The notes beneath the pieces are model-generated. The model had not been told where the DNA came from and did not search any database. It worked only from the letters and a program-made list of their open reading frames with translations. From assembly GCF_014672715.2 (NCBI RefSeq), contig NZ_CP058566.2:1178001-1242000 (forward strand): a stretch of DNA of 64,000 bases, written 5' to 3'. The stretch comes from Dehalogenimonas etheniformans (GTDB lineage: Bacteria; Chloroflexota; Dehalococcoidia; Dehalococcoidales; Dehalococcoidaceae). Within the stretch, counting starts at the first letter, position 1. Every line of letters starts with the position of its first letter. Below, in pieces: positions 2 to 32,363 of the stretch. The position numbers and the translations under genes are program-made.

Positions 2-1531
2 ATGTCTTCGTTTCATAGTACTGTATCGCGCCGCGAATTCATGAAAGGGCTCGGGATGGCCGGTACCGGCCTGGGTAGCGCTGCCTTTATCACACCGGTG
101 TTCCATGACCTGGACGAACTGATATCATCCGAGGACGCTGAATGGAATCGCCCATGGTGGGTGAAACAAAGAGAAATTGACAATCCCACATTGGAGTTTG
201 ATTGGAGCCAAATCGAGCGTGGCGACATGCGATCCACGTGTTTCCAACCTTATGTCTTGGCTTATTACTGGGGTGGGGTAAATGAATATAAGCGGGTTGC
301 TGCTATCGCCGCCACTAAGGCCGCGCAAGCATTGGGCACACAACCTGGCTTCTACCTGAAAGACAGTGCTCTTGGCAGTGGGAACTGGAATATCATGAAT
401 CCTGCTTATTTTCCCAGCCATGTCACGAATTATTACTTTACTGGCCCAAAGACTGCTCCGACTCCAGAGCAAATGGGATTACCTAAGTGGCAGGGGACTC
501 CCGAGGAAGCTGCTCGCATGTTGCGTCGAGCCGCCATTTTCTACGGTGCCCAGCAGGTTGGGTTTACCGAGCTTGGGGCAGGAGGTAGCAACGCACGGAA
601 ACTCATCTGGACTTACTTAATGGGTACGAACTATTTTTCAACCAAATATATAGATTCAGGTGTATGGCCGCCGCCCCCGGAGGAAGCAAAAAAAGTCAAT
701 ATGGAGGATGTTGATCCGGGATACGAGGATGAAAAGGTTGTTCATTTGCCCAATAAGTCCCTGTGGGATATCAGTTTTATGATCGGGATGTCTAGAGAAA
801 TGTGGCGTGCGGGTCAAGGAACTAAAATCCAAAATGCCGCCGCGGGTGCTCGCTATCGTCAAATGCAGGTTATCCAGGGCTGTATGCAAGAGTTCCTAAG
901 GGGGCTTGGTTATAACGGTTACGGTTATGCTCGAGATTTAGGTGGTTTGATGCCTGCCGGGGCTAGCGCCATACTGAGCGGTTTAACTGAACAAGCCCGC
1001 CACAGTGATTCCACCATAAGTCCTGAAATGGGTTCTATCGCCGGGTACTTCAGCTTGCTAACAGATCTGCCTCTTGCGCCAAACCACCCTATAGACGCCG
1101 GCATCTTCCGCTTCTGTCATACGTGTTACAAGTGTGCTGATGAATGTCCAACTCAAGCAATATCTCATGACACTCAACCCACTTGGGACTTACCGACACC
1201 GTATGGTAAGCCCAACATAAACAACACACCGGGCAAGAAAATGTTTTATACGGACTTGGCTAAATGTCGAACTTTTATGGAAGTGACCCCTTATGGCAGT
1301 TGCATGAATTGTAGGCCTTCTTGCACCTTTAATGTTAATACAGCATCTTCAATCCACAAGGTGGTCAAAATGACCACTTCAACCACTCCACTTTTCAACA
1401 GCTTTTTCTATAAAATGGGCAAGACCTTCGGTTATGGAATAAAGGAGCCAGAAGAATGGTGGGACATGTCCTTGCCCTCCTATGGTTTTGACACAACGGT
1501 TTTCGCTAGTAGTGGAGGGTACAACAAATAA
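2..1531 (+). CDS. rdhA: Reductive dehalogenase catalytic subunit RdhA (copy 1)
   Basis: Corrinoid/Fe-S enzyme that reductively removes halogen from organic substrates as the terminal step of organohalide respiration; expected outside the cytoplasmic membrane. The 509-residue protein begins with a Tat signal (SRREFMKGL, twin Arg 10-11) followed by a small-residue-rich hydrophobic stretch. Near the C-terminus are two 4Fe-4S motifs: CX2CX2CX3CP (Cys 372, 375, 378, 382) and a second set (Cys 422, 434, 437, 441). The ATG is at the very edge of the window, so its ribosome site is not visible, but the start matches the other four copies. No rdhB follows; rdhA2 lies 161 bases downstream with no clear terminator between. 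Substrate cannot be predicted. Confidence 0.96.
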   Translation: MSSFHSTVSRREFMKGLGMAGTGLGSAAFITPVFHDLDELISSEDAEWNRPWWVKQREIDNPTLEFDWSQIERGDMRSTCFQPYVLAYYWGGVNEYKRVAAIAATKAAQALGTQPGFYLKDSALGSGNWNIMNPAYFPSHVTNYYFTGPKTAPTPEQMGLPKWQGTPEEAARMLRRAAIFYGAQQVGFTELGAGGSNARKLIWTYLMGTNYFSTKYIDSGVWPPPPEEAKKVNMEDVDPGYEDEKVVHLPNKSLWDISFMIGMSREMWRAGQGTKIQNAAAGARYRQMQVIQGCMQEFLRGLGYNGYGYARDLGGLMPAGASAILSGLTEQARHSDSTISPEMGSIAGYFSLLTDLPLAPNHPIDAGIFRFCHTCYKCADECPTQAISHDTQPTWDLPTPYGKPNINNTPGKKMFYTDLAKCRTFMEVTPYGSCMNCRPSCTFNVNTASSIHKVVKMTTSTTPLFNSFFYKMGKTFGYGIKEPEEWWDMSLPSYGFDTTVFASSGGYNK

Positions 1532-1692
1532 AATGGGATCAAAAACGGGGGTATGAATTTCCCATTCCGAATATTTTTCCGAGGTGGCGAGCACACTATC
1601 GAGCCCAGGTTGGGCGGTTATGGGATGAACACGGCTTGAGAGTATTCGAGAAAAGACCATAGATCCAGAAAATAATTGATTAGGAGAATCGA

Positions 1693-3216
1693 ATGTCTAA
1701 GTTTCATAGCACAATGTCGCGACGTGACTTCATGAAGAGGCTCGGGATGGCCTCTGCCGGCATGGGCAGCTCTACCCTCTTTTCGCCAGTGTTTCATGAC
1801 TTGGACGAGTTAATATCATCCGAGGCAGCTGAATGGGAACGTCCGTGGTGGGTGAAACAAAGAGAAATTGACAACCCAACTATCGACTTTGACTGGAGCC
1901 GTATAGAGCGCGGCGACCAACGGTTGACTTTATTCTTTCCTTATGTCTTGGCTTATTACTGGGGTGGAGCAGATGAGTATAGGCGCGTAGCCGCCATTGC
2001 AGCTGATAAAGATATTCAGCCGAGAGGTAAAGAACCTGGCTTCTATCTGAAAGATTTATCTCTTGCCAATGCTTCCGCGTGGAATGTTTTCGCTCCCAAG
2101 TCCCTCATGGCATCTTTTTCCTTAGTCGGTCCACAGTCCGCCCCGACACCGGAGCAAATGGGGTTACCCAAGTGGCAGGGGACTCCTGAGGAAGCCGCGC
2201 GAATGTTACGCCGAGCCGCCATCTTCTTTGGTGCTCAGCAGGTCGGTTTTACCGAACTTGGTCCAGGTGGTAGCGATGCGAGGAAACTTATTTGGACTCA
2301 TACTATGGGAATAGCCTGGGCAAATCCAAAATATATAGATAATAGTACTTGGCCGCCGCCGCTCGAGGAGGCATGGAAAATAAACATGGAGGATATTGAC
2401 CCGGGATATGACGACGGCAAGGTTGTACATCTGCCCAACAAACCACTTTGGGACATCAGCGTCATGATTGGGATGTCTAGAGAAATGTGGCGTGCGGGTA
2501 ATGGCACAAAAATCCAACGTGCTGGTGCGGGTGCCCGTTACCGTCAAATGCAAGTTATCCAGGGTTGCATGCAGGAGTTCCTGAGAGGATTGGGTTATCA
2601 ATGCTATGGCTATGCCCGAGATTTGTCAGGGTTAATGCCCGCTGGAGCAAGCGCCATACTGAGCGGATTGACTGAACAAGGTCGTCACAGCGATTCTACT
2701 ATCAGTCCGGAAATGGGTTCTATCGCAGGTTACTTCAGCCTGCTCACCGACTTGGAAGTGGCACCGACTAATCCAATAGATGCCGGTATCTTTCGCTTCT
2801 GCCATACTTGTTACAAATGCGCCAACGAATGCCCGACTCAGGCAATATCTCACGATACTGAGCCTTCATGGGACTTACCGACTCCGTATGGCAAACCGAA
2901 CATAAACAACACCCCCGGCAAGAAGATGTTCTACACAGACTTGGCTAAGTGTCTAACTTATTGGGAAGTGACTCCATATGGCGTTTGTTTCAATTGTAGA
3001 GCCACTTGTACCTTCAACGTTAATACAGCATCTTCAATTCACAAGTTGGTTAAAATGACCACATCAACAACCCCTCTTTTCAACGGCTTTTTTTATCAAA
3101 TGGGTAAGACCTTCGGTTATGGAATAAAAGAGCCAGAAGAGTGGTGGGATATGTCTTTGCCATCTTATGGATTTGATACAACAGGTTTCGCCAGAAGTGG
3201 CGGGTACAATAGGTAA
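1693..3216 (+). CDS. rdhA: Reductive dehalogenase catalytic subunit RdhA (copy 2)
   Basis: Close paralogue of the gene just upstream: long identical stretches in the Tat region, the GTPEEAARMLRRAAIF block and the Fe-S region show a recent tandem duplication, while the segment around residues 75-145 and scattered pocket positions differ. Length is 507 residues. Tat motif SRRDFMK at residues 9-15; 4Fe-4S Cys at 370, 373, 376, 380 and 420, 432, 435, 439. The ATG is preceded by AGGAG with ideal spacing. No membrane-anchor gene rdhB is seen after it. An 11-bp perfect hairpin lies about 40 bases past the stop. The duplicated pair may cover different halogenated substrates; that is inference. Confidence 0.96.
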   Translation: MSKFHSTMSRRDFMKRLGMASAGMGSSTLFSPVFHDLDELISSEAAEWERPWWVKQREIDNPTIDFDWSRIERGDQRLTLFFPYVLAYYWGGADEYRRVAAIAADKDIQPRGKEPGFYLKDLSLANASAWNVFAPKSLMASFSLVGPQSAPTPEQMGLPKWQGTPEEAARMLRRAAIFFGAQQVGFTELGPGGSDARKLIWTHTMGIAWANPKYIDNSTWPPPLEEAWKINMEDIDPGYDDGKVVHLPNKPLWDISVMIGMSREMWRAGNGTKIQRAGAGARYRQMQVIQGCMQEFLRGLGYQCYGYARDLSGLMPAGASAILSGLTEQGRHSDSTISPEMGSIAGYFSLLTDLEVAPTNPIDAGIFRFCHTCYKCANECPTQAISHDTEPSWDLPTPYGKPNINNTPGKKMFYTDLAKCLTYWEVTPYGVCFNCRATCTFNVNTASSIHKLVKMTTSTTPLFNGFFYQMGKTFGYGIKEPEEWWDMSLPSYGFDTTGFARSGGYNR

Positions 3217-3255
3217 TACATGGATGAAGTGAAGACCTAGAGGAATCGATATATC

Positions 3256-3291
3256 AGCCAAGAGGCCAGTTGGGACTGAAGCCTCTTGGCT
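3256..3291 (+). terminator. Hairpin after rdhA2
   Basis: An 11-bp perfect inverted repeat (AGCCAAGAGGC / GCCTCTTGGCT) with a 14-base loop sits 40 bases after the rdhA2 stop. No T-run follows, so it may be a weak terminator or an mRNA-stabilising 3' hairpin. Confidence 0.5.
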
Positions 3292-3814
3292 GTCGAAAGC
3301 ATGCTACATTGTAACGGTTAAGTATCATAAGAGGCAGTCCATGGGTCAGGAAATCGCTTAAACTATTTGATGATACGATTATTTGCTTTAGGCGTATTCA
3401 AAGATCGTTTTGTACGGTGTCCAGCCGATTTAGAGAAAAAACGTATCCCACTCTTATACTATTTGTACACAACTAATCCATCAGGAAGTCCAAAGCACCA
3501 CCAAGTCTTGTGAATTTCAAAGGACTAATACTTTTGGACAATTGCATACCACGTAAGGATCTGTTATCCTATACGCCATTCTTATATGAATATCCTAAAG
3601 GATAACTATTCTGCGCAAACGCTAAGACTCCCTTTTCCTTTAATCGCCCCAAATCAGAGGGTAACTATTACAACAGATTACGACAATAACCGGTCATGGG
3701 TTAACCACCGATTGTAAACAAGCGAGGTAAGAGGCATGACATGACTTCCAGGAGAGACTAGGACTCGGTAATAGACGCTAGGTTTGTAAATCAAAATTTA
3801 TTGAGGAGATGAAC
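3292..3814. promoter_or_regulatory. Long rdhA2-rdhA3 intergenic region with paired AGGAT/ATCCT repeats
   Basis: About 520 bases with no convincing gene. It contains two inverted repeats built of the same half-site: AGGAT-N5-ATCCT at 3556-3570 and TATCCT-AA-AGGATA at 3591-3604. Their position upstream of rdhA3 suggests an operator, which is inference. The last bases (GAGGAG at 3803-3808) are the ribosome site of rdhA3. Confidence 0.4.
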
Positions 3815-5215
3815 ATGTCGGAGTTTCATTCAACGGTTTCCCGGAGAGACTTTATGAAAGGTCTTGGCTTAACCGGAGTTGGATTGGGAGCGGCAAGTCT
3901 AGCTGTTCCAGCATTCCATGATCTTGATGAAGTCTCGAGTAGCACCACTGCATCTTGGAACCGTCCTTGGTATGTTAAACAAATTGATGCACCCACGTTG
4001 GAAGTTAACTGGGAAGAGCTTAAGCGATTTGATACTAGGGATGGCAAGGCAATTGAACCTGACGAAGCAGCCAAGTTGACCTCCGAACAAATGGCAAGAT
4101 GGGATGAAGCGACGCGGGCTAATAAACCGGGATATCGGATGCGGGACCGATCTTTGAGTCAAGCAAGTTGGCTATATGCAGCAGGTCCTCTAACTTATGA
4201 TTCTTTCACCGGTCCAACAATGAACGCCATGTTTTTCAGGGAGTTCGAATCTGAGAAACGTTGGGCAACTTTGCCGAAATGGGAGTCTACACCAGTAGAA
4301 AACAGCAGAACTCTCCGAGCTGCTTTAAAGCATTTTGGTGCTTACCAAGTATCTTTCTTACCTCTCGATGACAATATGAAAAAGCTCATATATTCCTATA
4401 GCCTAGCGCCGGATAGGAGTCTTTCCAGACCAGTCGTATTTGAAGACGTTGAGAAGGCTTATCATTCGAATGATAAATATGTAATTCCTAATAAATGCAA
4501 ATGGATTATTAATTACACAGTTCTACAATCGAATGAGCTTTCGAAGCGAACGGTTGCCCCTATCGGAACTGCTAGTTTTGGGAAAGGATATTCAGATCTT
4601 GCCATTATGGAAGGGTTTACGCAGCAATTTTTGAAGGGTCTTGGTTATCAAGGGGTGGGAGGAAGTACATCAACCTCCATACCTGTTGCATTCGGCATAT
4701 GCAGTGGACTAGGAGAATCATCTAGGGCAAGCTTTTTGATATCGCCGGAATATGGAGCAACAGTACGACAAACAACGAATATCTTCACTGATTTGCCTTT
4801 GGAACCAACAAAACCCATAGATGCTGGCATCTTCCGGTTTTGTAGGACCTGCAAGAAATGTGCTGACTCCTGCCCGTCAAATTCAATTAACAAAGACTCA
4901 GAACCTTCGTGGGATTGCGTGACAGGTAAGTGGAACAATTCTGGCATTAGGGGATTCAAAAACAATTTTTCAAGTTGTTTAAAATATTGGTATCAAGGGG
5001 ACGAAATTGGCTGCGGGATCTGTCAAGGAAGCTGCGTTTATTCAAAAACCGAAGAAAATGCAATGATTCACGAAATCGTTAAGGGTACAATATCCCAGAC
5101 CTCTTTGTTTAACGGTTTCTTCCGCAATATGGACGATGTCTTCGGATATGGAATGAAACCCGATCTTGATGCATGGTGGAATGAAGATCGACCAGGTAAT
5201 CTTCGACGATTCTAA
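3815..5215 (+). CDS. rdhA: Reductive dehalogenase catalytic subunit RdhA (copy 3)
   Basis: Third RdhA, 466 residues and more divergent than copies 1 and 2. Tat motif SRRDFMKGL, then 4Fe-4S motifs at Cys 343, 346, 349, 353 (CRTCKKCADSCP) and Cys 388, 400, 403, 407. The GLGESSR and TDLPL blocks typical of the corrinoid-binding C-terminal half are present. Two in-frame ATGs exist, at 3809 and 3815; the GAGGAG ribosome site abuts 3809 but is 6 bases from 3815, and 3815 gives the MSxFHST start shared with the paralogues, so 3815 is chosen. No rdhB follows. A long structured intergenic region separates it from the ribonucleotide reductase gene. Confidence 0.95.
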   Translation: MSEFHSTVSRRDFMKGLGLTGVGLGAASLAVPAFHDLDEVSSSTTASWNRPWYVKQIDAPTLEVNWEELKRFDTRDGKAIEPDEAAKLTSEQMARWDEATRANKPGYRMRDRSLSQASWLYAAGPLTYDSFTGPTMNAMFFREFESEKRWATLPKWESTPVENSRTLRAALKHFGAYQVSFLPLDDNMKKLIYSYSLAPDRSLSRPVVFEDVEKAYHSNDKYVIPNKCKWIINYTVLQSNELSKRTVAPIGTASFGKGYSDLAIMEGFTQQFLKGLGYQGVGGSTSTSIPVAFGICSGLGESSRASFLISPEYGATVRQTTNIFTDLPLEPTKPIDAGIFRFCRTCKKCADSCPSNSINKDSEPSWDCVTGKWNNSGIRGFKNNFSSCLKYWYQGDEIGCGICQGSCVYSKTEENAMIHEIVKGTISQTSLFNGFFRNMDDVFGYGMKPDLDAWWNEDRPGNLRRF

Positions 5216-10411: not shown

Positions 10412-10544
10412 GATTCTAAGTGACAATACAAGCTTTTGTATGATGTCCAGCGGAATTCCGTCATGACATCGTTGTTTTTCGTATTAAGTTGTGACTCTAG
10501 GGTTGAGAAATTATAATGACCCTGATTTTCACTTGGAATCTCAA

Positions 10545-12662
10545 ATGGATAACTCCATCAACAAGAGAATCGATGAATGTCTGGAATCCAGCAGATTCAC
10601 TGAAACCGCTGGGCTAATTAAGAGTGTCTCCAAATATCTATTAAATTGTGGGGATTATTCGTCCTTATTGCTTTGGAATTCAAAATTTCCGAATGATGTA
10701 CTGAAGGATGACTTTGAACTATCCATTATCTTCGCTCAAAGCTTGATTCATACCGGAGAAGTACATCAAGCTGGCAGAATATTGACGAGTTTCATTGAAA
10801 ATACCGTAAATGCCCCAGGTTCATTCGCATTTCTCATCAGTGCCTATATCTGGCGAAGTGCGGCACACCGTTTATCGGGCAACCTTGAAAACGCCATTTC
10901 CGATTCAACAAAAGCAATATCGCTTTTAGATAAAAGTGAAGGGCATAACGATTTAAAAGCCTCTGCTCACTTTAGATTGGGGAATTGCCTCATTGATACC
11001 GGTAATCTCGAGGATGCAATCCATCAATTAAAACTGGCATTGGATCTTTCGACGGATACTTTTGATCTTGATCTTATCGCCCGCATTCAAAATTCTCTTG
11101 GTGCAGCATACATGCGACTGGGCAATATCACCAAAGCTGCTATTCACCTGGAATATGCGCGCGAAGCTTGGGCAAAAACCAGCAATCTTGGCGCTTTAGC
11201 TTCAACTATGAACAATCTCGCGTATATCTTTCAAAGACTTGGTCAACTAGCACGAGCCTCCGACATTCTTCAAACATCTCTCGACTATGCAAGAAGCGCA
11301 CACGCAACCCGTCTCGAGGCAAGCATTCTCATTGCTTTAGGTGTGGTCCAGCGCGATCTCGGTGAATTGGAACAATCAACCGAAACACTCACTCTGGCTT
11401 TAGGCGTGTCCCGCCAAGCGATGGAAAAGAGTTTTGTCTCCTGGGCGAAAGCCGAATTAGGGGATACATACCGAAGGGCTAAGAAATATTCCCGGTCAGT
11501 CGGAATACTGAATGAAGCCATTACCCAGGCACAGGAACAGAACCAAGTGATGGAGATCGAAATCTTCAGGGTGTCTTTGGGCGCTTCACAATTCTTAGAA
11601 GGCGATCATGAGAAAGGACTTGATCTTTTAACGAGGACTTCTGAGAAGCTGGAATCCCTTGGAGATCAAGAGGCTTTGGCTCGCTGCTATTTTTTCTTGG
11701 CCTGTAGCAATTTCAGCATCAAGGAATTTGATAAAACGATCACCTGGTTAAATAAAACCTATCAGCTGGCCAAGAAAATTGGATACCACGAATATCTGGT
11801 AAACGATGGCCAAGATTTTCCTCTGGTGATTCAATTAGCCGCCTCAAAACAGATCGGGGGAAACTTTTTCGGCAAGATCCAGGAACGCATCAAGACGAGG
11901 AAGATAGAAAAGCGGAAAACAATTGCCGGTGTTGAAATACCTCTACCTTTTGAAATTGAAGTAGCTGCACTGGGCACCAGCAGCGTTCGTATATTTTCGA
12001 AGTCTGTGGGAGATGCTGAGTGGCGCAGCCAAAGAGCCAAGGAGTTGTTTATTTATCTATTTTGCCATCCGAATCAGACCGCCGAACAGATAATGGCTGC
12101 CCTTTGGCCCGATCAATCACCCTCAAAAGCCTTGAGTAATTTTCACACTTCTCTTTATAGGGCACGCCGAGCCACCTCACCCAGTATCATAGTTATGAAC
12201 GACGGGCACTATCTCATCAACAAAGACCTTAGAATCTATTTCGACGTGTCGGATTTTATTCAACTGATGGAACCCAAATTGCCTGATGAGGAAGATTCCA
12301 TATTTTATGAACGTCTCGGACAGGCAATTAACGTCTACCGCGGGGCGTTCCTGGAAGGACTACAAAGTGAATGGATCGAGACAGTTCGTCGAGAGTTGGA
12401 GGAGAAGTATCTTAGAACTCTTTCGATATTGGCTTGCTATTACAGGAAGCAAAAACAATTTCTCAAGGCTATACCTATTATCGAAAAAGCAACACGTGTT
12501 GATGAATTTCAAGATGATTTATACTGCGATCTAGTTGAGTGCCACATCGCCCTAGGTGATCGTCTTTCAGCACTGAGAGTTTACCAGAGGTATCATTCTA
12601 AGATACTCCGTGAGATCGGTTCCGAACCCTCTTCTAGGTTCCTGGAATTACTAAAACGTTAA
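10545..12662 (+). CDS. TPR-repeat transcriptional regulator with C-terminal BTAD domain
   Basis: About 705 residues. The first two thirds are tandem tetratricopeptide repeats (for example the SAHFRLGNCLIDTGNLEDAI and LARIQNSLGAAYMRLGNI type units). Then comes an OmpR/SARP-like winged helix (RAKELFIYLFCHPNQTAEQI, ALWPD) and a BTAD domain (FLEGLQSEWIETVRRELEEK to the end, ALRVYQRYHSKILREIG). Such proteins are DNA-binding activators whose TPR part senses a ligand or partner. A GTG at 10491 would add 18 residues; neither start has a strong ribosome site. A perfect terminator follows, then a gene for a tiny secreted-type peptide, an order resembling Rap-Phr and other RRNPP receptor-peptide pairs of Firmicutes. 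A peptide-sensing role is inference. Confidence 0.85.
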   Translation: MDNSINKRIDECLESSRFTETAGLIKSVSKYLLNCGDYSSLLLWNSKFPNDVLKDDFELSIIFAQSLIHTGEVHQAGRILTSFIENTVNAPGSFAFLISAYIWRSAAHRLSGNLENAISDSTKAISLLDKSEGHNDLKASAHFRLGNCLIDTGNLEDAIHQLKLALDLSTDTFDLDLIARIQNSLGAAYMRLGNITKAAIHLEYAREAWAKTSNLGALASTMNNLAYIFQRLGQLARASDILQTSLDYARSAHATRLEASILIALGVVQRDLGELEQSTETLTLALGVSRQAMEKSFVSWAKAELGDTYRRAKKYSRSVGILNEAITQAQEQNQVMEIEIFRVSLGASQFLEGDHEKGLDLLTRTSEKLESLGDQEALARCYFFLACSNFSIKEFDKTITWLNKTYQLAKKIGYHEYLVNDGQDFPLVIQLAASKQIGGNFFGKIQERIKTRKIEKRKTIAGVEIPLPFEIEVAALGTSSVRIFSKSVGDAEWRSQRAKELFIYLFCHPNQTAEQIMAALWPDQSPSKALSNFHTSLYRARRATSPSIIVMNDGHYLINKDLRIYFDVSDFIQLMEPKLPDEEDSIFYERLGQAINVYRGAFLEGLQSEWIETVRRELEEKYLRTLSILACYYRKQKQFLKAIPIIEKATRVDEFQDDLYCDLVECHIALGDRLSALRVYQRYHSKILREIGSEPSSRFLELLKR

Positions 12663-12690
12663 ACTAATAGAGTTAAGGTGCATCTGGATA

Positions 12691-12719
12691 AAGGAAGGCC
12701 AATTGGCCTTCCTTTTTTG
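12691..12719 (+). terminator. Rho-independent terminator after the TPR-BTAD gene
   Basis: Perfect palindrome AGGAAGGCCAATTGGCCTTCCT followed by a T-rich run ending TTTTTTG, 30 bases after the regulator stop codon. It implies that the downstream peptide gene needs its own promoter or read-through. Confidence 0.88.
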
Positions 12720-12786
12720 TTTTGTAAGAGATTGGTCAGAGAAGGCCGATATGATTGGAATAAAAGAGAAAAAGGTGGTGATATCT

Positions 12787-12894
12787 TTGAAGAAGCTGTC
12801 GATTCGGACATTAGTCATTTTGGCGATTAGCCTGATCGCATCCCTAGCCACAGCTACGGCTGTTGCTGCAGGCCCTTTCCCGACCATGCCATGA
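12787..12894 (+). CDS. Putative 35-residue secreted peptide precursor (signalling peptide candidate)
   Basis: A TTG-started frame of 35 residues. The start is set by an exceptionally good ribosome site, AAGGTGGTGAT, whose GGTGG core ends 8 bases before the TTG. The peptide begins MKKLSIRTLVILAIS, continues as a hydrophobic alanine-rich core, and ends AVAA-GPFPTMP: a textbook Sec signal peptide (basic n-region, hydrophobic core, A-x-A cleavage site) with only about seven residues left after cleavage. That size matches RRNPP-type pheromones. It lies directly after the TPR-BTAD regulator gene. An upstream in-frame ATG at 12751 gives 47 residues but has a poorer site. No homologue is recalled; function is inferred from layout only. 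Confidence 0.65.
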   Translation: MKKLSIRTLVILAISLIASLATATAVAAGPFPTMP

Positions 12895-12902
12895 AAACTA
12901 AA

Positions 12903-12937
12903 GGTGAGGGGCCGCGGTTAACGACCGAGGTCCCTCA
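12903..12937 (+). terminator. Hairpin after the peptide gene
   Basis: Seven-bp stem GTGAGGG / CCCTCAC with a long loop, 8 bases after the peptide stop codon. It is not followed by a T-run, so it may be a weak terminator or a 3' stabilising hairpin that makes the peptide gene a separate small transcript. Confidence 0.45.
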
Positions 12938-12959
12938 CAAATAACAGAAATAAAAAGAT

Positions 12960-13298
12960 ATGATTGAACCGAACAATGACGATTCAGTCCAACAATTCGA
13001 CATCTCAACGTTAATCGGCGTTGATCTCAACGATTTTTCCGATATCGAGATTCTCGAGATCTTTTTTGGTCTTCACACTAATATCAATGACGGTCAGGCT
13101 TTAGCGCGAATTTGTGAAAGACGATTCGGATCGTTAAACAATTTGGTGAAAGCGTCTCCGAAAGCTCTGGCTAGAATTGGAATGCCTTGGCAAGCCATCT
13201 TGGCAATAAAATTCATTAACCTCATACAACGTAGAGTCAATCTTCCGTCCGAACTAAATCGGGTTGATGTGAACGGGTTAATAAATAGCATTAATTGA
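12960..13298 (+). CDS. Orphan RadC/UPF0758 N-terminal (helix-hairpin-helix) domain protein
   Basis: The 112-residue product matches the N-terminal half of RadC (UPF0758): LNDFSDIEILEIFFG, the ARICERRFGSLNNLVKASPKAL block and a helix-hairpin-helix-like segment. The JAB/MPN metalloprotease half normally found after it is missing and the frame ends cleanly, so this is a stand-alone N-terminal domain rather than an obvious frameshift. RadC is associated with mobile elements and defence islands, with poorly defined biochemical role. It sits 22 bases before the next unknown gene and probably shares its transcript. Confidence 0.7.
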   Translation: MIEPNNDDSVQQFDISTLIGVDLNDFSDIEILEIFFGLHTNINDGQALARICERRFGSLNNLVKASPKALARIGMPWQAILAIKFINLIQRRVNLPSELNRVDVNGLINSIN

Positions 13299-13320: not shown

Positions 13321-14037
13321 ATGGTGAGTTTTACGGATCTCTCCTGGGCAGCGCTATTAAATTATTATAAGTCCAATGGTGACAAGCGCTACCTTAAGCT
13401 GATGTCAGATAAATCATTCGTTCATCGCCTCCGAACTGCGCCTCACGAGATTCTTCCGGAAGAACTTGAACAAAAGCTCATTTTGGATCACGTAAATATA
13501 ATAAATTTCGATTTATTGGTAGCTTGTCGTCTCGCTGAGCAGATTCTAAAAAAGATAGATAAAGTACAGCCGGAAATAAGGGCCATTCAAGATTTTTCAA
13601 TTGTCGATGTAGATCCATTCGATCCAAGGACAATCGACTGTATCCAAACAATCTATCGTGAACTGTCTCAAGTAAATGGGCTTTGGTTAACCGGAGTATC
13701 GAAAATAGCACATGTATTAAATGATCAATTGTTACCCATTATGGGGTTGGATGTCATCGATCGATTCCCACAGATCAGAGAGCAAGGCTTTGACGGAGTC
13801 AGTGCATGGCTTAAGCAAATCCACGTAGACGCCGCCACCATTACAGAGGACTATCGAAGGAAAGGATTTTCAGGCAATCCAGAAACATATCTATCTGATC
13901 ATTTGGGGTACACTGCCAAGGGAATTGGCAAGTCTTTGGTCAAATTCCTTGATGAATATTACTGGATATTCTATGGTGAAGAACTGCCTCTCCCGCCAAA
14001 ATGGATTCCCTGTGATAAAAAAGATATCGCGGTTTAA
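13321..14037 (+). CDS. Hypothetical protein, 238 residues
   Basis: I do not recognise this protein with certainty. It is soluble, with no signal peptide or membrane span. The block IYRELSQVNGLWLTGVSKIAHVLN followed by LLPIMGLDV resembles a module seen in uncharacterised proteins where a short conserved helix pair precedes an aspartate-containing loop. It directly follows the RadC-N gene (22-base gap) and precedes the TrlF-type gene, so membership of the defence island is likely but unproven. Confidence 0.75.
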   Translation: MVSFTDLSWAALLNYYKSNGDKRYLKLMSDKSFVHRLRTAPHEILPEELEQKLILDHVNIINFDLLVACRLAEQILKKIDKVQPEIRAIQDFSIVDVDPFDPRTIDCIQTIYRELSQVNGLWLTGVSKIAHVLNDQLLPIMGLDVIDRFPQIREQGFDGVSAWLKQIHVDAATITEDYRRKGFSGNPETYLSDHLGYTAKGIGKSLVKFLDEYYWIFYGEELPLPPKWIPCDKKDIAV

Positions 14038-14229
14038 GGTATGAACTAATCTGACTTTTGCGCAAAAAGGATACCTCTCTTTATCCATGTGTACCATATG
14101 AGAATGAATGCTCATTAAATCATTGGTGCCTTAGGTATGTGAAGATTTGACGAGTTGGATATAAGGGGAATATTTTCTAATAAGTTCAAAAAGAATATAT
14201 CTACGAAATCGAACGATTGGGAGGGAAAA

Positions 14230-17169
14230 ATGCCTGCCTCAGTATCGGACCTAAATATATTCTTGAATAACCCCGGTTGGGCTAGATTCATGAAAACTAA
14301 TTTACATCTTCACACCCCGGCAACATCATGGGATTGGGATGCAGTCGAAGGACAGACTAGGCAGGCTAGTAATATAAGCATCGCAGAATACTTCGAGTCG
14401 TTAAACAAGACTTCACTGGATTTAGTTGCAATTACGGATCACAATTGTGTTTCTTGGTGCGGACCCCTGATTGAACTTGCAACAGCAGCTCGCAAATCGG
14501 GCAAAAGTAAGATTCATATCCTGCCTGGGGTCGAAATAACGACATATGAAGGTCCACATATCGTTGGAATTTTTGATGAGTCTTCTGATTTAGAGAAGAT
14601 TGAGTTGATGTTGACTCGGCTTGGAATGTCCGGCAAAGGGGAAAAGGAAGATAAGGTTGGTAGGTTCCCGGGTGCCAAGTCGCCGCATACCATCCAAGAA
14701 GTATTCAAGGAGATAGATTCGTTGGGAGGGATCGTTGTCGGACCGCATGTTGATAACGCGGATGGTCTTTGGGGATTTAAGGATTTTAGATCACGTAATC
14801 AAGTATTAAATGACCAGCTTATTCGGATTTTAGCAGCACCATCTGGAACAATAAAGAAGGTGCGCGAAGCTGATGGGGCAGTGCGCTTATTGTTCAAGAA
14901 TATGGATACGAAGATTATTACCAACTCTTTTGGATTTCTGAACACATCAGACTCCCACCGCCTAGAAGACTTTGAAGAGAAGGTGACGTGGATAAAGATG
15001 ACCAGACCCGGCCTAGAAGGGGTTCGGCAATTGGTTTATGAGCCAGAATTACGTGTCAGTCATGAGATTCATGAAATCGAAGACAAAACAGGCAGGTTAG
15101 AATTTAGAGAAGGCTTCTTTTTTGTGGAACCCAGTCCGCTTCCTTACCCATATCCAAAAATTATTGGAATTTCCATCAATGGGGGGATGCTGGACGGATT
15201 GAAGGTAGCATTAAGCCCAAATCAAAACAGCATAATTGGGCGTAATTACGCTGGGAAATCAGCGTTATTAGATTGCATTAGGTTTGCATTGAATGTAATT
15301 CCTAGCGACCCGGATAAATTAGCCAAGTTCACGGATAGGATGAAGGCGTTTGTTGGAGATGGCGGAGATGTGACCTTATATCTCTCCGCCGAGGAAAAGA
15401 CCTACGCAGTTACAAGGATTCTCACCTCGACCAAAGTTGGGAAGGGACCAAAGGGGGTGCCGCAGATCACAGGCGCCCCTGATGTCTATTTGTTATGGAA
15501 TGGATCGGAATTCAAGCGCGAAAGTAGTAAGAACATCCACCAGGTGTTCCCAATCGAAGTCTATCCCCAAGGCGAGGTGACAAAGATAAAGGAAAATGCT
15601 GACCAGCAGATGCATATCGTTGATTCCCTGAACGGAATCAAATTATTAAAGGATGAAGTTGAATTGTTTGAATTGGGTGGTATTAAAACCATTCGGGGAG
15701 AACTTAAAGATAATCGCGAAAGCATCGTAAACAAATTGAAAAGAAAAGAAGAGTTGAATGAGGCAACATCAGGGATTGATCAGTTGCGGACCGAAATAGA
15801 AGATCTTGAATCGTTAAGCACATCGCCATCGGTAATCGAAAAAAAACTTTGGGCTGAACAAGAATTGAAGATTGAAAATCACACAAAGGAGTTACTGCGT
15901 TTCAAGCCCAAATGGAATTCAGCCAACTTGGTTCCGCAAACTCAAGATAATAAAATAGGGATAGAGCCGGGAGGAAAAGAGACTAGGGATATCGAATTCA
16001 AGCCTGAATCTGCACCACCAGCAGATTATTCTACGCAGGCGTCAAACATCTTCAAAACGACAATTAAAAAACTTGACGAAAGTATTTTGAACGGAAGTCA
16101 TGCAATCAGTGAAGGTATTGAAAATCTTTCAGTGCTAGAAAAATCTAGGAAATCTCGATCCGATGAACTAGATGAAAAGATTCTCAATTCAGCAATACCT
16201 GGGGATGCGCGAGCAATAGGCGATTCGCTAATCGACCACATTACGGAAAAGAGGAAAACACTTGCAGGGTTGCTCGATCAAAATAGGGAATTAGAGGGAG
16301 TGGAAAAAGAAATTGCAGAGCTAATTCGCATGCGAAAAGAACTTCTGCAAAGATACGGCGAAAAATGGAGCGATATAAAAAAGAAGCGACAAGAAGTAGT
16401 CCAGATGATTTCAAGAGGCTCGGCATCGAATATAAAAGCTGAGTTGATGATCGATGTGGATAAAACGCTCTATAAGGACAAACTAACTGATATCGTGGAT
16501 CGGTTTACGAGCGTGGCAGTGCGCATATCGCATAAAGAAGACCAATTGGCTCTTGTAACTGACGGTGCATCCCCAAATGAACTAGCTGATATAGTGAAAG
16601 GACACGTTAGTAAAGGAATTACGGATAAGTGCTCCGGAGTGACGCCGAACACGGAGAGCGTCCTGTTTTGCATGACAGATTCCGATGTCCTGGAGTTACA
16701 AGAATGTCCACTTGATGATAGATTTGTGATAAGTTATCAACGGGAAGGCGACACAGACTATACACCAGTAGATTCGGGTCTGTCTGGAGGAGAGCAGACT
16801 CTTGCATTAATATCCGTAGCCATGGTGCCGAAGGGGTTGCCTTTAATCATTGATCAACCCGAAGACGAATTAGGTCCTGGATTGATAACTCATGAACTTG
16901 TTGAACAAATACGTAAGGTCAAGTCAGAGAGGCAACTCATATTCGTGACACATGTTCCCAACATACCAGTGCTAGCAGATAGCGAGTTGGTACTTTGCGT
17001 TGAGCAGAAAATCGGAGCGAATGGGAAAAAATCAAAACTTAAGTGTTTTGGATCCCTTGAGGATGCCGATGTTGTTGGGCAATTATTGGAATTGGATGGT
17101 GGAAATATAGCTTTTGAGAAGCGGAGTCAAAGATACTCGCGTGCGACAAAGTCCAAATCAAAATTGTGA
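14230..17169 (+). CDS. TrlF-type protein: PHP domain plus SMC-like ABC ATPase
   Basis: About 979 residues. The N-terminal PHP phosphoesterase-like domain shows NLHLHTPATSWDWD, AITDHNCVSW and LPGVEITTYEG, giving His/Asp/Glu metal ligands. An SMC/Rad50-like ATPase follows: Walker A GRNYAGKS from residue 337, a long coiled coil in the middle, then the signature SGLSGGEQTLAL, Walker B LIIDQPEDE and the switch His in FVTHVPN. The architecture implies an ATP-driven DNA- or RNA-processing enzyme; the TrlF name is used for this family and defence roles are suspected. An upstream TTG at 14155 is possible, but the ATG at 14230 has GGGAGG five bases before it. Flanked by other accessory genes. Confidence 0.87.
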   Translation: MPASVSDLNIFLNNPGWARFMKTNLHLHTPATSWDWDAVEGQTRQASNISIAEYFESLNKTSLDLVAITDHNCVSWCGPLIELATAARKSGKSKIHILPGVEITTYEGPHIVGIFDESSDLEKIELMLTRLGMSGKGEKEDKVGRFPGAKSPHTIQEVFKEIDSLGGIVVGPHVDNADGLWGFKDFRSRNQVLNDQLIRILAAPSGTIKKVREADGAVRLLFKNMDTKIITNSFGFLNTSDSHRLEDFEEKVTWIKMTRPGLEGVRQLVYEPELRVSHEIHEIEDKTGRLEFREGFFFVEPSPLPYPYPKIIGISINGGMLDGLKVALSPNQNSIIGRNYAGKSALLDCIRFALNVIPSDPDKLAKFTDRMKAFVGDGGDVTLYLSAEEKTYAVTRILTSTKVGKGPKGVPQITGAPDVYLLWNGSEFKRESSKNIHQVFPIEVYPQGEVTKIKENADQQMHIVDSLNGIKLLKDEVELFELGGIKTIRGELKDNRESIVNKLKRKEELNEATSGIDQLRTEIEDLESLSTSPSVIEKKLWAEQELKIENHTKELLRFKPKWNSANLVPQTQDNKIGIEPGGKETRDIEFKPESAPPADYSTQASNIFKTTIKKLDESILNGSHAISEGIENLSVLEKSRKSRSDELDEKILNSAIPGDARAIGDSLIDHITEKRKTLAGLLDQNRELEGVEKEIAELIRMRKELLQRYGEKWSDIKKKRQEVVQMISRGSASNIKAELMIDVDKTLYKDKLTDIVDRFTSVAVRISHKEDQLALVTDGASPNELADIVKGHVSKGITDKCSGVTPNTESVLFCMTDSDVLELQECPLDDRFVISYQREGDTDYTPVDSGLSGGEQTLALISVAMVPKGLPLIIDQPEDELGPGLITHELVEQIRKVKSERQLIFVTHVPNIPVLADSELVLCVEQKIGANGKKSKLKCFGSLEDADVVGQLLELDGGNIAFEKRSQRYSRATKSKSKL

Positions 17170-17259
17170 GCTATTTCTGAAAGTACTACAGTCCCGGGGA
17201 CACAATTTGTTAGATGGTTACTGGACACGAGGTAATTCGTATTATAAATCGGAGCGGGT

Positions 17260-17505
17260 GTGACGACGAAGGAAATCAAATTTCGTAAATGGTTGATTGG
17301 AGTACTCAAAGAGAGAGGTGGGACTATACCTTTAGAAGACGCCAAGAACGCTGGTGCAGCATATTGTGACTGCTCCCAGATGACTATTGAACGCTATGTG
17401 AAGAAGTTCGCTCATTCCGGAGAAATTTTCTTCAGAGTGGCTGGCGAATACATGAATGGCAAATGGATTCAAGAGATAGTGCTTGGCAAACCAAAAATCG
17501 AATGA
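17260..17505 (+). CDS. Small winged-helix-like protein, 81 residues
   Basis: GTG start with GGAG five bases upstream. The short basic protein (KEIKFRKWLIGVLKERGG, then MTIERYVKKFAHSGEIF) reads as a three-helix winged-helix fold with a small C-terminal wing, as in accessory DNA-binding subunits. It lies 90 bases after the TrlF-type gene on the same strand and could be its partner or a regulator of the CBASS-like genes that follow. No family is confidently recognised. Confidence 0.6.
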   Translation: MTTKEIKFRKWLIGVLKERGGTIPLEDAKNAGAAYCDCSQMTIERYVKKFAHSGEIFFRVAGEYMNGKWIQEIVLGKPKIE

Positions 17506-17713
17506 TTACACTTTTTACTTAATTAATCCGCTGCTTTCCATTTGAATTCTTTTACGTAATTATCTCCTAGATATCAGTCAATGTTACAAAAGTCAGGATT
17601 GTATTGGTGTCAATGCCATTATATGGTGTTGTATAATATGTCAAATCCTGAAGCAATTTTCCAATTAGCCGTCGAGCGCGTATATTGAAAGCAGATTTAA
17701 ATTTGGAGCTGAA

Positions 17714-18595
17714 ATGGGATTAGCCGAATGGTTTTCGACTTATTGTTCTAATATCTGTGTTCAAAACGGGCCGACAATATCGACCCGGTATAAAATGATA
17801 ACACAACGTTTAAATTTAGATTTCTGGAGTATTTATTCCGAGATTTCCCACAGTTTGTACGTGGGGTCCTACGGAAGAAATACCGCAATAAATGGTGTCA
17901 GTGACATTGATATGGTATTCGAATTACCTGCTAATGTTTTCGAAAAGTACAATGCTTATATTAGTAATGGTCAATCAGCTCTATTACAAGCTGTCAGGTC
18001 ATCTTTACTAAAAACATACCCTAACTCTCGGGTGGGCGGCGATGGTCAAGTTGTGGCAATAGATTTTGCTGACGGAATTACATTTGAAATCGTTCCAGTA
18101 TTCACAAACGATGATGGAAGTTATATTTTCCCTGATTCAAATGACGGAGGAAAGTGGAGAACAACAAACCCCAGAGCCGAAATTCAAGCAATCAGGGAAA
18201 GAAACTCGAATTGTAACGAGAACCTTTATCGGCTTTGTAGGATGATGCGCTCCTGGAAGTCCCAGTGGGACGTCCCAATAGGAGGCTTATTGATCGACAC
18301 TTTTGCACATCAGTTTATTGGGAATTGGTCTAATCGCGACAAATCTTTTTATTACTATGATTTCATGTGCCGAGACTTTTTCAAATGGGTTTCAGAACAA
18401 AGTCCCGATCAGATGCTCTGGAGAGCCCCGGGGAGTAATCAATATGTTTTTGCAAAAGGGCCGTTCATAAAGAAAGCTTCAAAATGCCATGATATCGCTC
18501 TGGAAGCAATTGAACATGAAATGGCCACACCAAAGAGAGAATGGTCCGCAAAACAAAAATGGAGAGAGATTTTTGGAACAGAATTCCCCAGCTGA
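17714..18595 (+). CDS. CBASS-type CD-NTase (SMODS nucleotidyltransferase)
   Basis: A 293-residue cGAS/DncV-like nucleotidyltransferase. It carries the GS motif GSYGRNTA (residues 51-58), the DxD metal ligands DIDM (Asp64, Asp66) and a third acidic residue in FEIVPVF (Glu125), followed by the helical C-terminal domain. In CBASS such enzymes make cyclic di- or trinucleotides on phage infection, which activate an effector. The downstream gene encodes a SLATT two-span membrane protein, a known effector partner of SMODS enzymes. The active-site residues are intact, so activity is expected. The cyclic product cannot be read from sequence. The start at 17714 has GGAG six bases upstream. Confidence 0.87.
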   Translation: MGLAEWFSTYCSNICVQNGPTISTRYKMITQRLNLDFWSIYSEISHSLYVGSYGRNTAINGVSDIDMVFELPANVFEKYNAYISNGQSALLQAVRSSLLKTYPNSRVGGDGQVVAIDFADGITFEIVPVFTNDDGSYIFPDSNDGGKWRTTNPRAEIQAIRERNSNCNENLYRLCRMMRSWKSQWDVPIGGLLIDTFAHQFIGNWSNRDKSFYYYDFMCRDFFKWVSEQSPDQMLWRAPGSNQYVFAKGPFIKKASKCHDIALEAIEHEMATPKREWSAKQKWREIFGTEFPS

Positions 18596-19181
18596 CAGCA
18601 AATTAGAAGCTCAACGAATTTTGGAAGGCCAAATTAGAAACTGCTTTGGCCGGGTAGTGTATTCCCATAAAACTCATGAGAAATGCGGTGATATTCTCTT
18701 ATCCCAGCTTTCAACGATTAAAAAGTGGCAAATCATCTTATCTGCAATTACTGCCGTTGGATTTATAACGATCATTTTCGGAAGTGGGACCATCGGGGCT
18801 TCGATCGGTGCAACTGTAGCTGTCGTTCTTCTCGCCCTTAACACATATGTTAAAGATCATGACCTCGGCGAATTAGCGGGGAAACACAAAGCTGCCGGAA
18901 ATGAACTTTGGCTTATCAGGGAAAAATATTTATCTTTATTGACCGATTTGGCCATAGGGGAAAAAACCATGACGTCCCTCCAGCAAGAACGTGACACCTT
19001 AGCTTTTGAGCTCCATCAAGTTTATGCAGGTTCACCCAGCACCACCTATCGAGCATACCAAAAAGCTCAAGAATCGTTAAAACAATTGGAAGAAATGACA
19101 TTCTCTGAAAATGAAATTGATGCATTTTTGCCAGATGAATTGAGACGAGGAACATCAAAAGCCATAGCAATACCGGAATAG
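18573..19181 (+). CDS. SLATT-domain two-span membrane effector
   Basis: A protein of about 202 residues with two adjacent membrane spans (WQIILSAITAVGFITIIFG and ASIGATVAVVLLALNTYV) flanked by charged helices, the SLATT (SMODS and SLOG-associating 2TM) layout. Such proteins are thought to form membrane pores when their nucleotide signal is bound, causing abortive infection. The likely start is TTG at 18573, with GGAGAG six bases upstream, overlapping the CD-NTase end by 23 bases, so translation is probably coupled. An ATG at 18516 is possible but would lengthen the overlap. With the CD-NTase it forms a minimal two-gene system; no Cap2/Cap3 accessory genes are present. Confidence 0.82.
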   Translation: MEQNSPADSKLEAQRILEGQIRNCFGRVVYSHKTHEKCGDILLSQLSTIKKWQIILSAITAVGFITIIFGSGTIGASIGATVAVVLLALNTYVKDHDLGELAGKHKAAGNELWLIREKYLSLLTDLAIGEKTMTSLQQERDTLAFELHQVYAGSPSTTYRAYQKAQESLKQLEEMTFSENEIDAFLPDELRRGTSKAIAIPE

Positions 19182-21651: not shown

Positions 21652-23139
21652 GTGAGTAAATTTCATAGCACGATAAATCGCAGAGATTTCATGAAAGCCT
21701 TGGGTATTACTAGCGCAAGTCTCGGAGCCATGGGAATGGCTTCCCCCGTATTTCATGATTTGGATGAGATGTCTCAAAGCGGAATTGGATCAAAACGTCC
21801 TTGGTATGTAAAAGAAAATGAACCTGGAAAACTCACTGTTGACTACGACTGGGCTTTGATGAAAAACCCGGATCAAATGAAAACGATGCATGGTGGCGGT
21901 TTTCTAGGGGTATTGGAAGGAAGGAATGGGTTTTGTCAAGACCCCAACAGCACGTTCCGGCAAACGTACGGAATACAGAGATCTCAAGAAATCATCGACA
22001 AGGCGGTCCAAATATTGCATGACGGGGCTGCAACCAATCGACCAGGATATCAGGTGCGAGATTTAGCTCTAAACGCAGGAGCAGTTACAGTTGAATCGTT
22101 ACCATATTATAAAGCCGCTGCGGGTGATGCTGGTAGACGAAACAATCCTAAATGGCAAGGCACTCCTGAGGAAGCTGCCAAAATGGTATGGACGGCAGGC
22201 CGATTCTACGGAGCCTCTGATATAAGAACGGGAGAGATAACAGACCAGGAAAAAGTACTCTTCTTCACCCGTGATCTTCATAACGTGCCAATAGTGTTCG
22301 AGGACTCGGAAATAGGGTATTCCAACTCTACTAAAAGAGTGATCCCAAATAAGAAATATTACTCTATCTCGGTAGCTATCCATATGAGCAAGGAACTCTT
22401 TCGTTATGGATACTCGCCTATGCGATATGCTGCTAACCTGAGTCGTTATCGCCAGTGGAGGCCTATTCAAATGGCACTAATGAATTTCATATCCACGCTT
22501 GGATATGACACATTAGGGTATTACGAGTTAATGTATGGCGTAATACCCGCAGAAGCAAGCGCGCTTTTGTTTGGGCACTCGGAAATCTCAAGAAATGATA
22601 ATTTCCTCATAAGCCCGGACTGGGGGAGCGTACAAGGATACTTCACATTACTTACAACCCTACCTCTCGCTCAGTCAAAACCTATTGATGCAGGAATATC
22701 CAGATTTTGTAATACCTGTAAGAAGTGTGCTGAATCGTGTCCCCAGCAGTGTATCTCCTATGACAATGAGCCCTCTTGGGATATTCCCAATTCAAAAGCG
22801 GTTCCGAGTGCGCCAACCAGTTATACCACACCGGGTAAAAAGACCTTTCACACGGATGCAATCGCCTGTATGTCACAGTGGGTTGGTACTGCGATGGGTT
22901 GCGGATTCTGTATGGGCAACTGCGTTTTCAATGTGAATTCAAAGTCGATGATTCATCAATTGGTTAAACCAACGGTGAGCGCGCTGCCCATACTTAACCA
23001 TACTTTGAGACAGGCTGATGTTCTCTTTGGATACGGATTAACCCCTGAAGGTGATTTCGAAAAATGGTGGGATATGAACTTACCGGTATACGGGACAGAT
23101 TCAACGTTCAATTCTACTATGGGTGGCTACAACAAGTAA
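21652..23139 (+). CDS. rdhA: Reductive dehalogenase catalytic subunit RdhA (copy 4)
   Basis: A 495-residue RdhA starting with GTG, five bases after a perfect AGGAGG. Tat motif NRRDFMKAL, 4Fe-4S Cys 353, 356, 359, 363 (CNTCKKCAESCP) and Cys 406, 417, 420, 424; the spacing of the second motif is one residue shorter than in copies 1-3. It resembles copy 5 most closely (GHSEISRNDN, WGSVQGYF blocks). The PAS kinase/response regulator pair reads away from it and probably controls it. A strong terminator follows at 23195, then a microprotein gene. No rdhB is present. Confidence 0.95.
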   Translation: MSKFHSTINRRDFMKALGITSASLGAMGMASPVFHDLDEMSQSGIGSKRPWYVKENEPGKLTVDYDWALMKNPDQMKTMHGGGFLGVLEGRNGFCQDPNSTFRQTYGIQRSQEIIDKAVQILHDGAATNRPGYQVRDLALNAGAVTVESLPYYKAAAGDAGRRNNPKWQGTPEEAAKMVWTAGRFYGASDIRTGEITDQEKVLFFTRDLHNVPIVFEDSEIGYSNSTKRVIPNKKYYSISVAIHMSKELFRYGYSPMRYAANLSRYRQWRPIQMALMNFISTLGYDTLGYYELMYGVIPAEASALLFGHSEISRNDNFLISPDWGSVQGYFTLLTTLPLAQSKPIDAGISRFCNTCKKCAESCPQQCISYDNEPSWDIPNSKAVPSAPTSYTTPGKKTFHTDAIACMSQWVGTAMGCGFCMGNCVFNVNSKSMIHQLVKPTVSALPILNHTLRQADVLFGYGLTPEGDFEKWWDMNLPVYGTDSTFNSTMGGYNK

Positions 23140-23194
23140 CGTTCCATGCAAGGTGAAGTAAGAATTAAAGATTCTTTCAGTTACATAACTACGT

Positions 23195-23234
23195 ACGCCA
23201 GGGGGAATATTATTTTTCCCCTTGGCGTTTTAAG
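23195..23234 (+). terminator. Rho-independent terminator after rdhA4
   Basis: Hairpin ACGCCA-GGGG ... CCCC-TTGGCGT with an AT-rich loop followed by TTTT, 55 bases after the rdhA4 stop. It separates rdhA4 from the following microprotein gene. Confidence 0.82.
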
Positions 23235-23271
23235 TTAGTTCATCAACATATCAAAAGGTGAGATTGTTTTA

Positions 23272-23355
23272 ATGATATGCGATATTGTTTTCTTAACAAT
23301 TACCTTGGTAATTGTGATAGCTTGTTGTTTCGGGAAAAAGCTACTTCAAAAATAG
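23272..23355 (+). CDS. Putative 27-residue single-span membrane microprotein (CD-V/AC family, copy 2)
   Basis: A 27-residue frame with a good ribosome site (AAAGGTGAG, about 8 bases before the ATG). The peptide starts MICDIVFLTI, runs through an isoleucine/valine-rich span to ACC-F, and ends in KK-LLQK. It shares its layout and several identities with the peptide at 7287 (CD then V, span, AC, aromatic, basic end). It lies between the rdhA4 terminator and rdhA5. It is far too short to be RdhB, which has about 90 residues and three spans. Function unknown; a small membrane partner or leader peptide are both possible. Confidence 0.5.
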   Translation: MICDIVFLTITLVIVIACCFGKKLLQK

Positions 23356-23537
23356 CTGGGATCGACTCTTCTTCGGTACTTCAATCTAAAGACGAACGAA
23401 GACTTGATTTAGCCTGCCAGTTAAAGTCTGACTAAACATGGGAGATTTGAGTACATCTACTGTGGATTAACAAATAAGTTAGTTTTGGCCGTTAATATAA
23501 GTAGATTTTGTCCTCCTGGGAGGCTGATTGCAATACA

Positions 23538-23561
23538 AACTCGCTTTATCCAAAGTGAGTT
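23538..23561 (+). promoter_or_regulatory. Hairpin in the rdhA5 leader
   Basis: Ten-pair stem AACTCGCTTT / AAAGTGAGTT (one G-T pair) with loop ATCC, 90 bases before rdhA5. A smaller CCTCC-TG-GGAGG palindrome precedes it near 23512. Possible regulatory leader structure; no known riboswitch is recognised. Confidence 0.4.
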
Positions 23562-23650
23562 CAAAGATCGAGAAAGGAGGGTTAAAAGAAAAGCTCTCGC
23601 GGAACTTAAATGATTTATTATCCAGGCAATAATTTAAAAGGAGTAAGGAA

Positions 23651-32299: not shown

Positions 32300-32363
32300 T
32301 GGTCTCGAACCACTGACCTCTGCGATGTCAACGCAGTGCTCTAACCAACTGAGCTAACCGCCC
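32287..32363 (-). tRNA. tRNA-Val (GAC), probable attachment site
   Basis: Clear cloverleaf on the minus strand: acceptor stem GGGCGG pairing with CCGCCC, D-arm TAGCTCAGTTGGTTAGA, anticodon stem CTGCG/CGCAG around loop TTGACAT (anticodon GAC), T-loop GTTCGAGAC, discriminator A and encoded CCA. The 3' end overlaps the last 13 bases of the serine recombinase gene. It is the boundary between the accessory region and the core genome. Confidence 0.95.

Follow-up and report, generated by a model that had tools for sequence, protein, structure and literature searches.

A candidate peptide-signalling cassette with a SARP-type regulator in Dehalogenimonas and other Chloroflexota

The window analysed here, a stretch of 64,000 nucleotides from the complete 2.07-Mb genome of Dehalogenimonas etheniformans (G000), carries a regulator gene followed by a short gene for a secreted pro-peptide, and a predicted SARP-type operator is located between both genes. 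Judged from the comparison of related loci, the regulator very probably activates the adjacent peptide gene. With less certainty, we lean towards the reading that the two genes form a complete autoinducer loop, i.e. a two-gene autoregulatory peptide-signalling cassette.

The regulator, the peptide and their neighbourhood

The regulator gene occupies positions 10545–12662 on the forward strand, where all cassette features described below are located, and encodes 705 amino acids counted from the ATG codon. This start was favoured over the GTG at 10491 because a promoter-like site of the gene, TTGTGA-17-TATAAT (consensus match only), is found at 10489–10517. The protein consists of a TPR superhelix (residues ~1–460), a winged helix (466–574) and a BTAD domain (575–705). 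Pfam matches were obtained for TPR_12 (7e-33) and BTAD (1.3e-15), and an alignment profile of residues 460–701 matched the SARP domain of AfsR in the PDB (8jke/8k60) with an E-value of 1e-42. Pfam and profile matching revealed no LuxR-type HTH, the wHTH-BTAD module being present instead, and no Pfam domain corresponding to an N-terminal HTH or a Rap 3-helix bundle.

The AlphaFold model of the regulator (mean pLDDT 90.6) showed a long TPR superhelix with domain III of MalT as its best structural neighbour (Z 32.1, 361 residues, 3.1 Å). The Z values were 30–32 for Rap-pheromone complexes, 26–28 for NprR and 24 for AimR; as TPR superhelices resemble each other and this model is matched by eukaryotic TPR proteins as well, these values indicate a suitable fold and not binding. 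Homologues of the regulator are mostly 1045–1100 amino acids long, and in most of them a MalT-like STAND ATPase (match to the MalT model, 1e-47) precedes the TPRs. The proteins of the window and of another Dehalogenimonas genome, G007 (705–717 amino acids), do not contain this ATPase.

The regulator gene is followed by an intrinsic terminator (12690–12725) composed of an 11-bp stem (12690–12715) and a T tract. Further downstream, the ribosome-binding site AAGGTGGTGAT (12772–12782) precedes a TTG-started frame (12787–12894) encoding a pro-peptide of 35 amino acids, MKKLSIRTLVILAISLIASLATATAVAAGPFPTMP. Terminator, ribosome site and frame are present as described in the first-pass annotation, but the frame, placed there 90-odd bases downstream, actually starts 124 nt past the regulator stop and ~70 nt past the terminator stem. 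The predicted signal peptide would be cut after AVA or VAA, as judged by eye, to release AGPFPTMP or GPFPTMP. Neither Pfam nor NCBIfam contained a match for the peptide. A hairpin without T tract was recognised by eye 3′ of the peptide gene (12904–12938), and a similar hairpin is present in G007.

Two genes follow, which encode a 112-aa protein with weak RadC N-terminal/HhH similarity (12960–13298) and a 238-aa protein of unknown family (13321–14037) that gave neither a family match nor a PDB match. Both are found in the same place in G007, where the block of regulator, peptide, HhH protein and 238-aa protein is conserved with 54, 51, 46 and 71% identity, respectively. The 238-aa protein is better conserved between the window and G007 than the regulator, and it is possibly the output gene of the cassette. 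As G007 keeps this block without the rdhA, TrlF and cyclase genes, we regard the cassette and not the surrounding island as the unit; the earlier suggestion that the pair could report the state of the element is thus unsupported.

In the window, the region 14155–19181 contains a TrlF-family ATPase (NCBIfam 2.8e-109) and an oligonucleotide cyclase (PADLOC 1.5e-134) overlapping a 2TM effector (9.5e-77), the latter two forming a CBASS-like pair. Five ORFs with Tat-type starts (2–5215 and 21652–25138) were read by eye from their translations as rdhA, and two of these (2–1531 and 1693–3216) are adjacent and very similar. The end of a gene of the serine-recombinase type, recognised by its sequence (30767–32363), overlaps a tRNA-Val gene on the opposite strand (32287–32363), which makes this region the likely integration site of the island.

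Recurrence of the regulator-peptide pair

The peptide gene is located directly 3′ of the regulator gene in all three other genomes of the genus which carry the regulator (G007, G005 and G006), with the tails GPIATLP, WPVATGP and WPVGTCP, respectively; the four same-genus genomes without regulator are also without peptide. It likewise follows the regulator in G011, G024 and G049, which belong to other families. Plain-similarity matches of the peptide in distant genomes (E 0.1–4) were left out unless they were located at a regulator locus. Of 393 genomes searched class-wide at E 1e-40, 83 carried the regulator, and a search by named organism yielded further carriers, including Tepidiforma flava and Anaerolineae. 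In total, 107 distinct regulators were collected.

The automatic criterion demanded a ribosome site, a length of 20–60 amino acids, a positive N-terminus, a hydrophobic stretch and a start not more than 300 nt from the stop. It found a downstream peptide gene for 54 of 89 distinct regulators but, among 389 other genes from these loci, for 3; the corresponding Fisher p of ~1e-43 overstates the enrichment because the loci are related by descent. At the strictest setting two background matches were left (L034 and L053), both of which resemble the same peptide family. Wider inspection assigned a peptide gene to 68 of the 89 regulators. For one regulator clade within L116–L130 (L116, L117, L118, L120, L121, L128 and L130), no peptide was found up to 3 kb on either side.

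On this comparative evidence, the 35-residue signal-peptide frame downstream of the regulator is not a product of chance, since regulator and peptide are present or absent together within the genus and the frame is enriched at regulator loci. By the same comparison the pair is spread over Dehalococcoidia and Anaerolineae and is not peculiar to Dehalogenimonas. The pN/pS ratio was 0.21–0.59 in every close group of peptide genes and ~0.37 between the window and G007; by this measure, the peptide codons are under purifying selection. The idea of a TPR-BTAD regulator that possesses its own secreted peptide gene and is built on a SARP module is borne out. The first-pass annotation had stated that homologues lacking the frame, or an unconserved frame, would argue for chance; instead, the frame recurs, its tails are conserved, pN/pS stays below 1 and 11-bp operators accompany it. 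A chance frame, or one that serves as leader peptide of the genes behind it, might be suspected from the TTG start and the missing annotated family, but such a reading is rendered extremely improbable by recurrence, operator and purifying selection and by downstream genes which differ between clades.

The tails are characteristic of clades and include GAAP(Y/F/I)QSW, AAQSPLF, AGQSAFI, AEVIWDL, GPxxTxP, FGP and others. At multi-copy loci (L133, L045 and L079) the leader differs between the copies and the tail is the same or nearly so, as in the paralogous copies of L133 ending in AAQSPLI and AAQSPFF. Near the peptide loci no modification genes were found to recur.

Of 63 peptide loci that extend far enough, 41 encode the predicted membrane protein DUF5317 after the peptide, compared to none of 20 peptide-less loci, and in at least one of the Anaerolineae genomes read its start overlaps the peptide stop. 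Such close linkage would suit an uncleaved peptide acting as a small membrane subunit, e.g. of DUF5317 or of an envelope-stress sensor. We consider this improbable, as Dehalogenimonas, including the window, has the peptide without DUF5317, and as the recurring features are AxA-type cleavage sites and conserved tails, the hydrophobic stretch being variable. The model of DUF5317 (pLDDT 73) gave no significant fold match, from which a new fold does not follow. Among the best 30 DUF5317 loci (L214–L243), e.g. L215, L216, L223 and L226, at least 13 from Anaerolineae show the triad of BTAD regulator, peptide ending with GAP-x-(D/G)GG.. and DUF5317, with a 12-bp repeat as operator. DUF5317 also occurs within open frames of ~600–850 amino acids.

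The peptide promoter and its co-variation with the regulator

Between the regulator terminator and the peptide gene we identified, beyond what the first-pass annotation describes, a predicted SARP-type operator, the 11-bp direct repeat TTTTGTAAGAG (12720–12730) and ATTGGTCAGAG (12731–12741), and a −10 box, TATGAT (12750–12755), located 8 nt past the second repeat at a distance which is near-fixed throughout the family. When 8-mers recurring with at least 7/8 identity were scored and periods of 6–40 were compared, repeats with an 11-bp period were detected in 43 of 57 non-redundant peptide upstream regions (1.2 expected from shuffles); no other period in this range exceeded 4 of the 57 regions. 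TAnnnT was found at exactly +13 from the AG of the second repeat in 28 of 41 promoters (0.44 expected). The operators of Anaerolineae have a 12-bp period, and the repeat sequence differs by clade (GGTAAGA, GGCGAGA, TCGCGAGA and TTCGTCACA). In known SARP operators, direct repeats are 11 or 22 bp apart and the 3′ repeat lies 8 bp from the −10 box (PMC10936776). Because of their 11-bp repeats and the fixed distance to the −10 box, the peptide promoters show the layout used by SARP activators such as AfsR.

All seven regulator-bearing genomes showed the Dehalogenimonas-type operator pattern, compared to none of five relatives without regulator. Genomes of the Tepidiforma type and most of Anaerolineae nearly always have one operator site, at the peptide, and in many genomes, including G000, the peptide gene's own operator is the sole detectable one. 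Additional G000 sites with two mismatches were discarded, as they were no more numerous than in the reversed control. Upstream of the regulator genes themselves the repeat was found in 1 of 52 cases (0.7 expected), which gives no sign of direct autoregulation of the regulator.

Extra operators exist in G005, G006, G024 and G049. Copies at L185 (G005) and L183 (G006) are followed by GlmS-like (glutamine-fructose-6-phosphate transaminase) genes, and others precede a GHMP-kinase-like sequence and secreted, zinc-ribbon and sensor-like proteins, all named by eye. The GlmS-like, GHMP-kinase-like, secreted and sensor-like genes hint at an output related to the envelope or to polysaccharides. For more distantly related BTAD regulators from Anaerolineae and Chloroflexus (L096, L099–L101 and L103), short direct repeats such as GTAAGCACTTCTGTAAGCACC were recognised by eye soon after the stop codon, where they stand before other genes. 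Given these downstream repeats, an activator adjoining its own operator may be an older theme among BTAD regulators.

With overall divergence controlled, differences between operators tracked only residues 476–574 of the regulator, with a peak at 525–554 which contains the modelled helix 526–543 of the winged helix. Rank regression with jackknife errors assigned the operator divergence to the winged helix (0.55 ± 0.18) and values of ~0 to all other domains. For tail divergence the highest value was obtained for TPR residues 201–411 (0.37 ± 0.09), followed by the winged helix (0.23) and BTAD (0.18); the sliding-window tail signal was diffuse, and the domain regression was used instead. As sequence pairs are not independent, we rate the operator result as strong and the tail result as suggestive. 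Co-variation of the operator sequence is confined to the DNA-binding domain, and that of the peptide tail seems strongest in the central part of the TPR domain. The co-variation of receptor groove and peptide tail proposed in the first-pass annotation is met with here in suggestive form, accompanied by weaker signals of winged helix and BTAD. Its claim that the pair works together gains from the operator and the winged-helix co-variation as far as the step from regulator to peptide is concerned; that the peptide in turn binds the regulator is no more than plausible, given the fold match and the co-variation of tail and TPR domain.

Proposed mechanism, related systems and significance

In the mechanism we propose, the TPR-wHTH-BTAD protein, as the sequence data support, is a SARP-type activator: it recognises the 11-bp direct repeats, which replace a −35 box, and turns on the adjacent peptide gene as well as, in some genomes, a few other promoters. 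The peptide would be exported via Sec and cut by signal peptidase, leaving a predicted tail of ~4–12 residues which may come back to the TPR domain of the regulator as autoinducer. The output would comprise the secondary operators and the operon after the peptide, which in most loci encodes DUF5317, elsewhere a response regulator or an HDOD protein and in the window the HhH/238-aa pair. G000 contains SBP_bac_5 importer genes, as do relatives without the regulator-peptide system.

The main rival to the autoinducer loop is a relay as in AfsR-AfsS of Streptomyces: the regulator would sense ATP, a metabolite or phosphorylation, and the secreted peptide would be its output, i.e. an effector or a signal to other cells, and not its ligand. 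An OmpR-like winged helix with BTAD, and 11-bp repeats at a fixed distance to the −10 box, place the regulator among the SARPs. The likeness to the large SARP AfsR comprises the wHTH-BTAD domain matched by the PDB profile, the TPRs, the nucleotide-binding domain in most homologues and the small target gene with an 11-bp direct-repeat operator at a set distance from the −10 box. AfsS is cytoplasmic, and the afsS gene adjoins afsR. In contrast, the target here is a secreted peptide consisting of little but its signal peptide, and the domain order SARP-NOD-TPR of AfsR is replaced by [STAND]-TPR-wHTH-BTAD, with STAND absent in the window protein. A relay would agree with the peptide gene often being the sole operator-bearing target, with the activation of the small gene afsS by AfsR via 11-bp repeats, with the control of AfsR by its own NOD/TPR part and ATP (PMC10936776), and with the MalT-like STAND ATPase of most homologues. 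However, tail divergence follows the TPR domain best, the tails fall short of the length of a usual bacteriocin and are not accompanied by recurrent modification genes, and the window regulator has lost the ATPase with the peptide retained; we therefore hold the relay to be unlikely, though a serious competitor of the autoinducer loop.

The autoinducer loop, which we favour, resembles RRNPP/RRNPPA systems (Rap-Phr, NprR-NprX, PlcR-PapR, Rgg-SHP and AimR-AimP) in the Rap/NprR-like TPR superhelix of the regulator, the neighbouring gene for a short secreted pro-peptide and the short C-terminal tail. It differs from them in the STAND ATPase of most homologues, the DUF5317 partner and its occurrence in Chloroflexota and not Bacillota. 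As RRNPP regulators are defined, among others, by an N-terminal HTH (PMC9765709) and the DNA-binding module here is a C-terminal SARP domain, the pair resembles RRNPP in its way of working but is not a member of it. MalT-type STAND regulators share the N-terminal ATPase of the homologues and the TPR fold of MalT domain III (Z 32), but MalT/LAL regulators have a LuxR-type HTH in place of BTAD/winged helix, and the window protein lacks the ATPase. We see an even chance that the cassette represents a distinct peptide quorum sensing of Chloroflexota outside RRNPP, with a STAND-TPR-SARP protein as both receptor and activator, a pro-peptide under an 11-bp operator and DUF5317 as dedicated partner, which would then serve as membrane partner for export, processing or immunity.

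Surveys place cytoplasmic peptide-pheromone receptors in Bacillota (PMC10075063, PMC9765709). In the literature covered, which excludes most subscription journals, we found no report of peptide signalling for Chloroflexota and no description of the regulator-peptide pair or of DUF5317; owing to this incomplete coverage, novelty is likely but not proven. The cassette is a good candidate for a so far undescribed form of peptide-based signalling in Chloroflexota, a phylum which includes the organohalide-respiring Dehalogenimonas. It is directly testable, even in vitro, because it names the peptide (GPFPTMP/AGPFPTMP), a 36-bp promoter and a candidate receptor, and it suggests a function for DUF5317. 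For AfsR, the TPR domain is presented as no more than a tentative sensor (PMC10936776); the cassette suggests what type of ligand SARP proteins with TPRs, AfsR among them, might bind.
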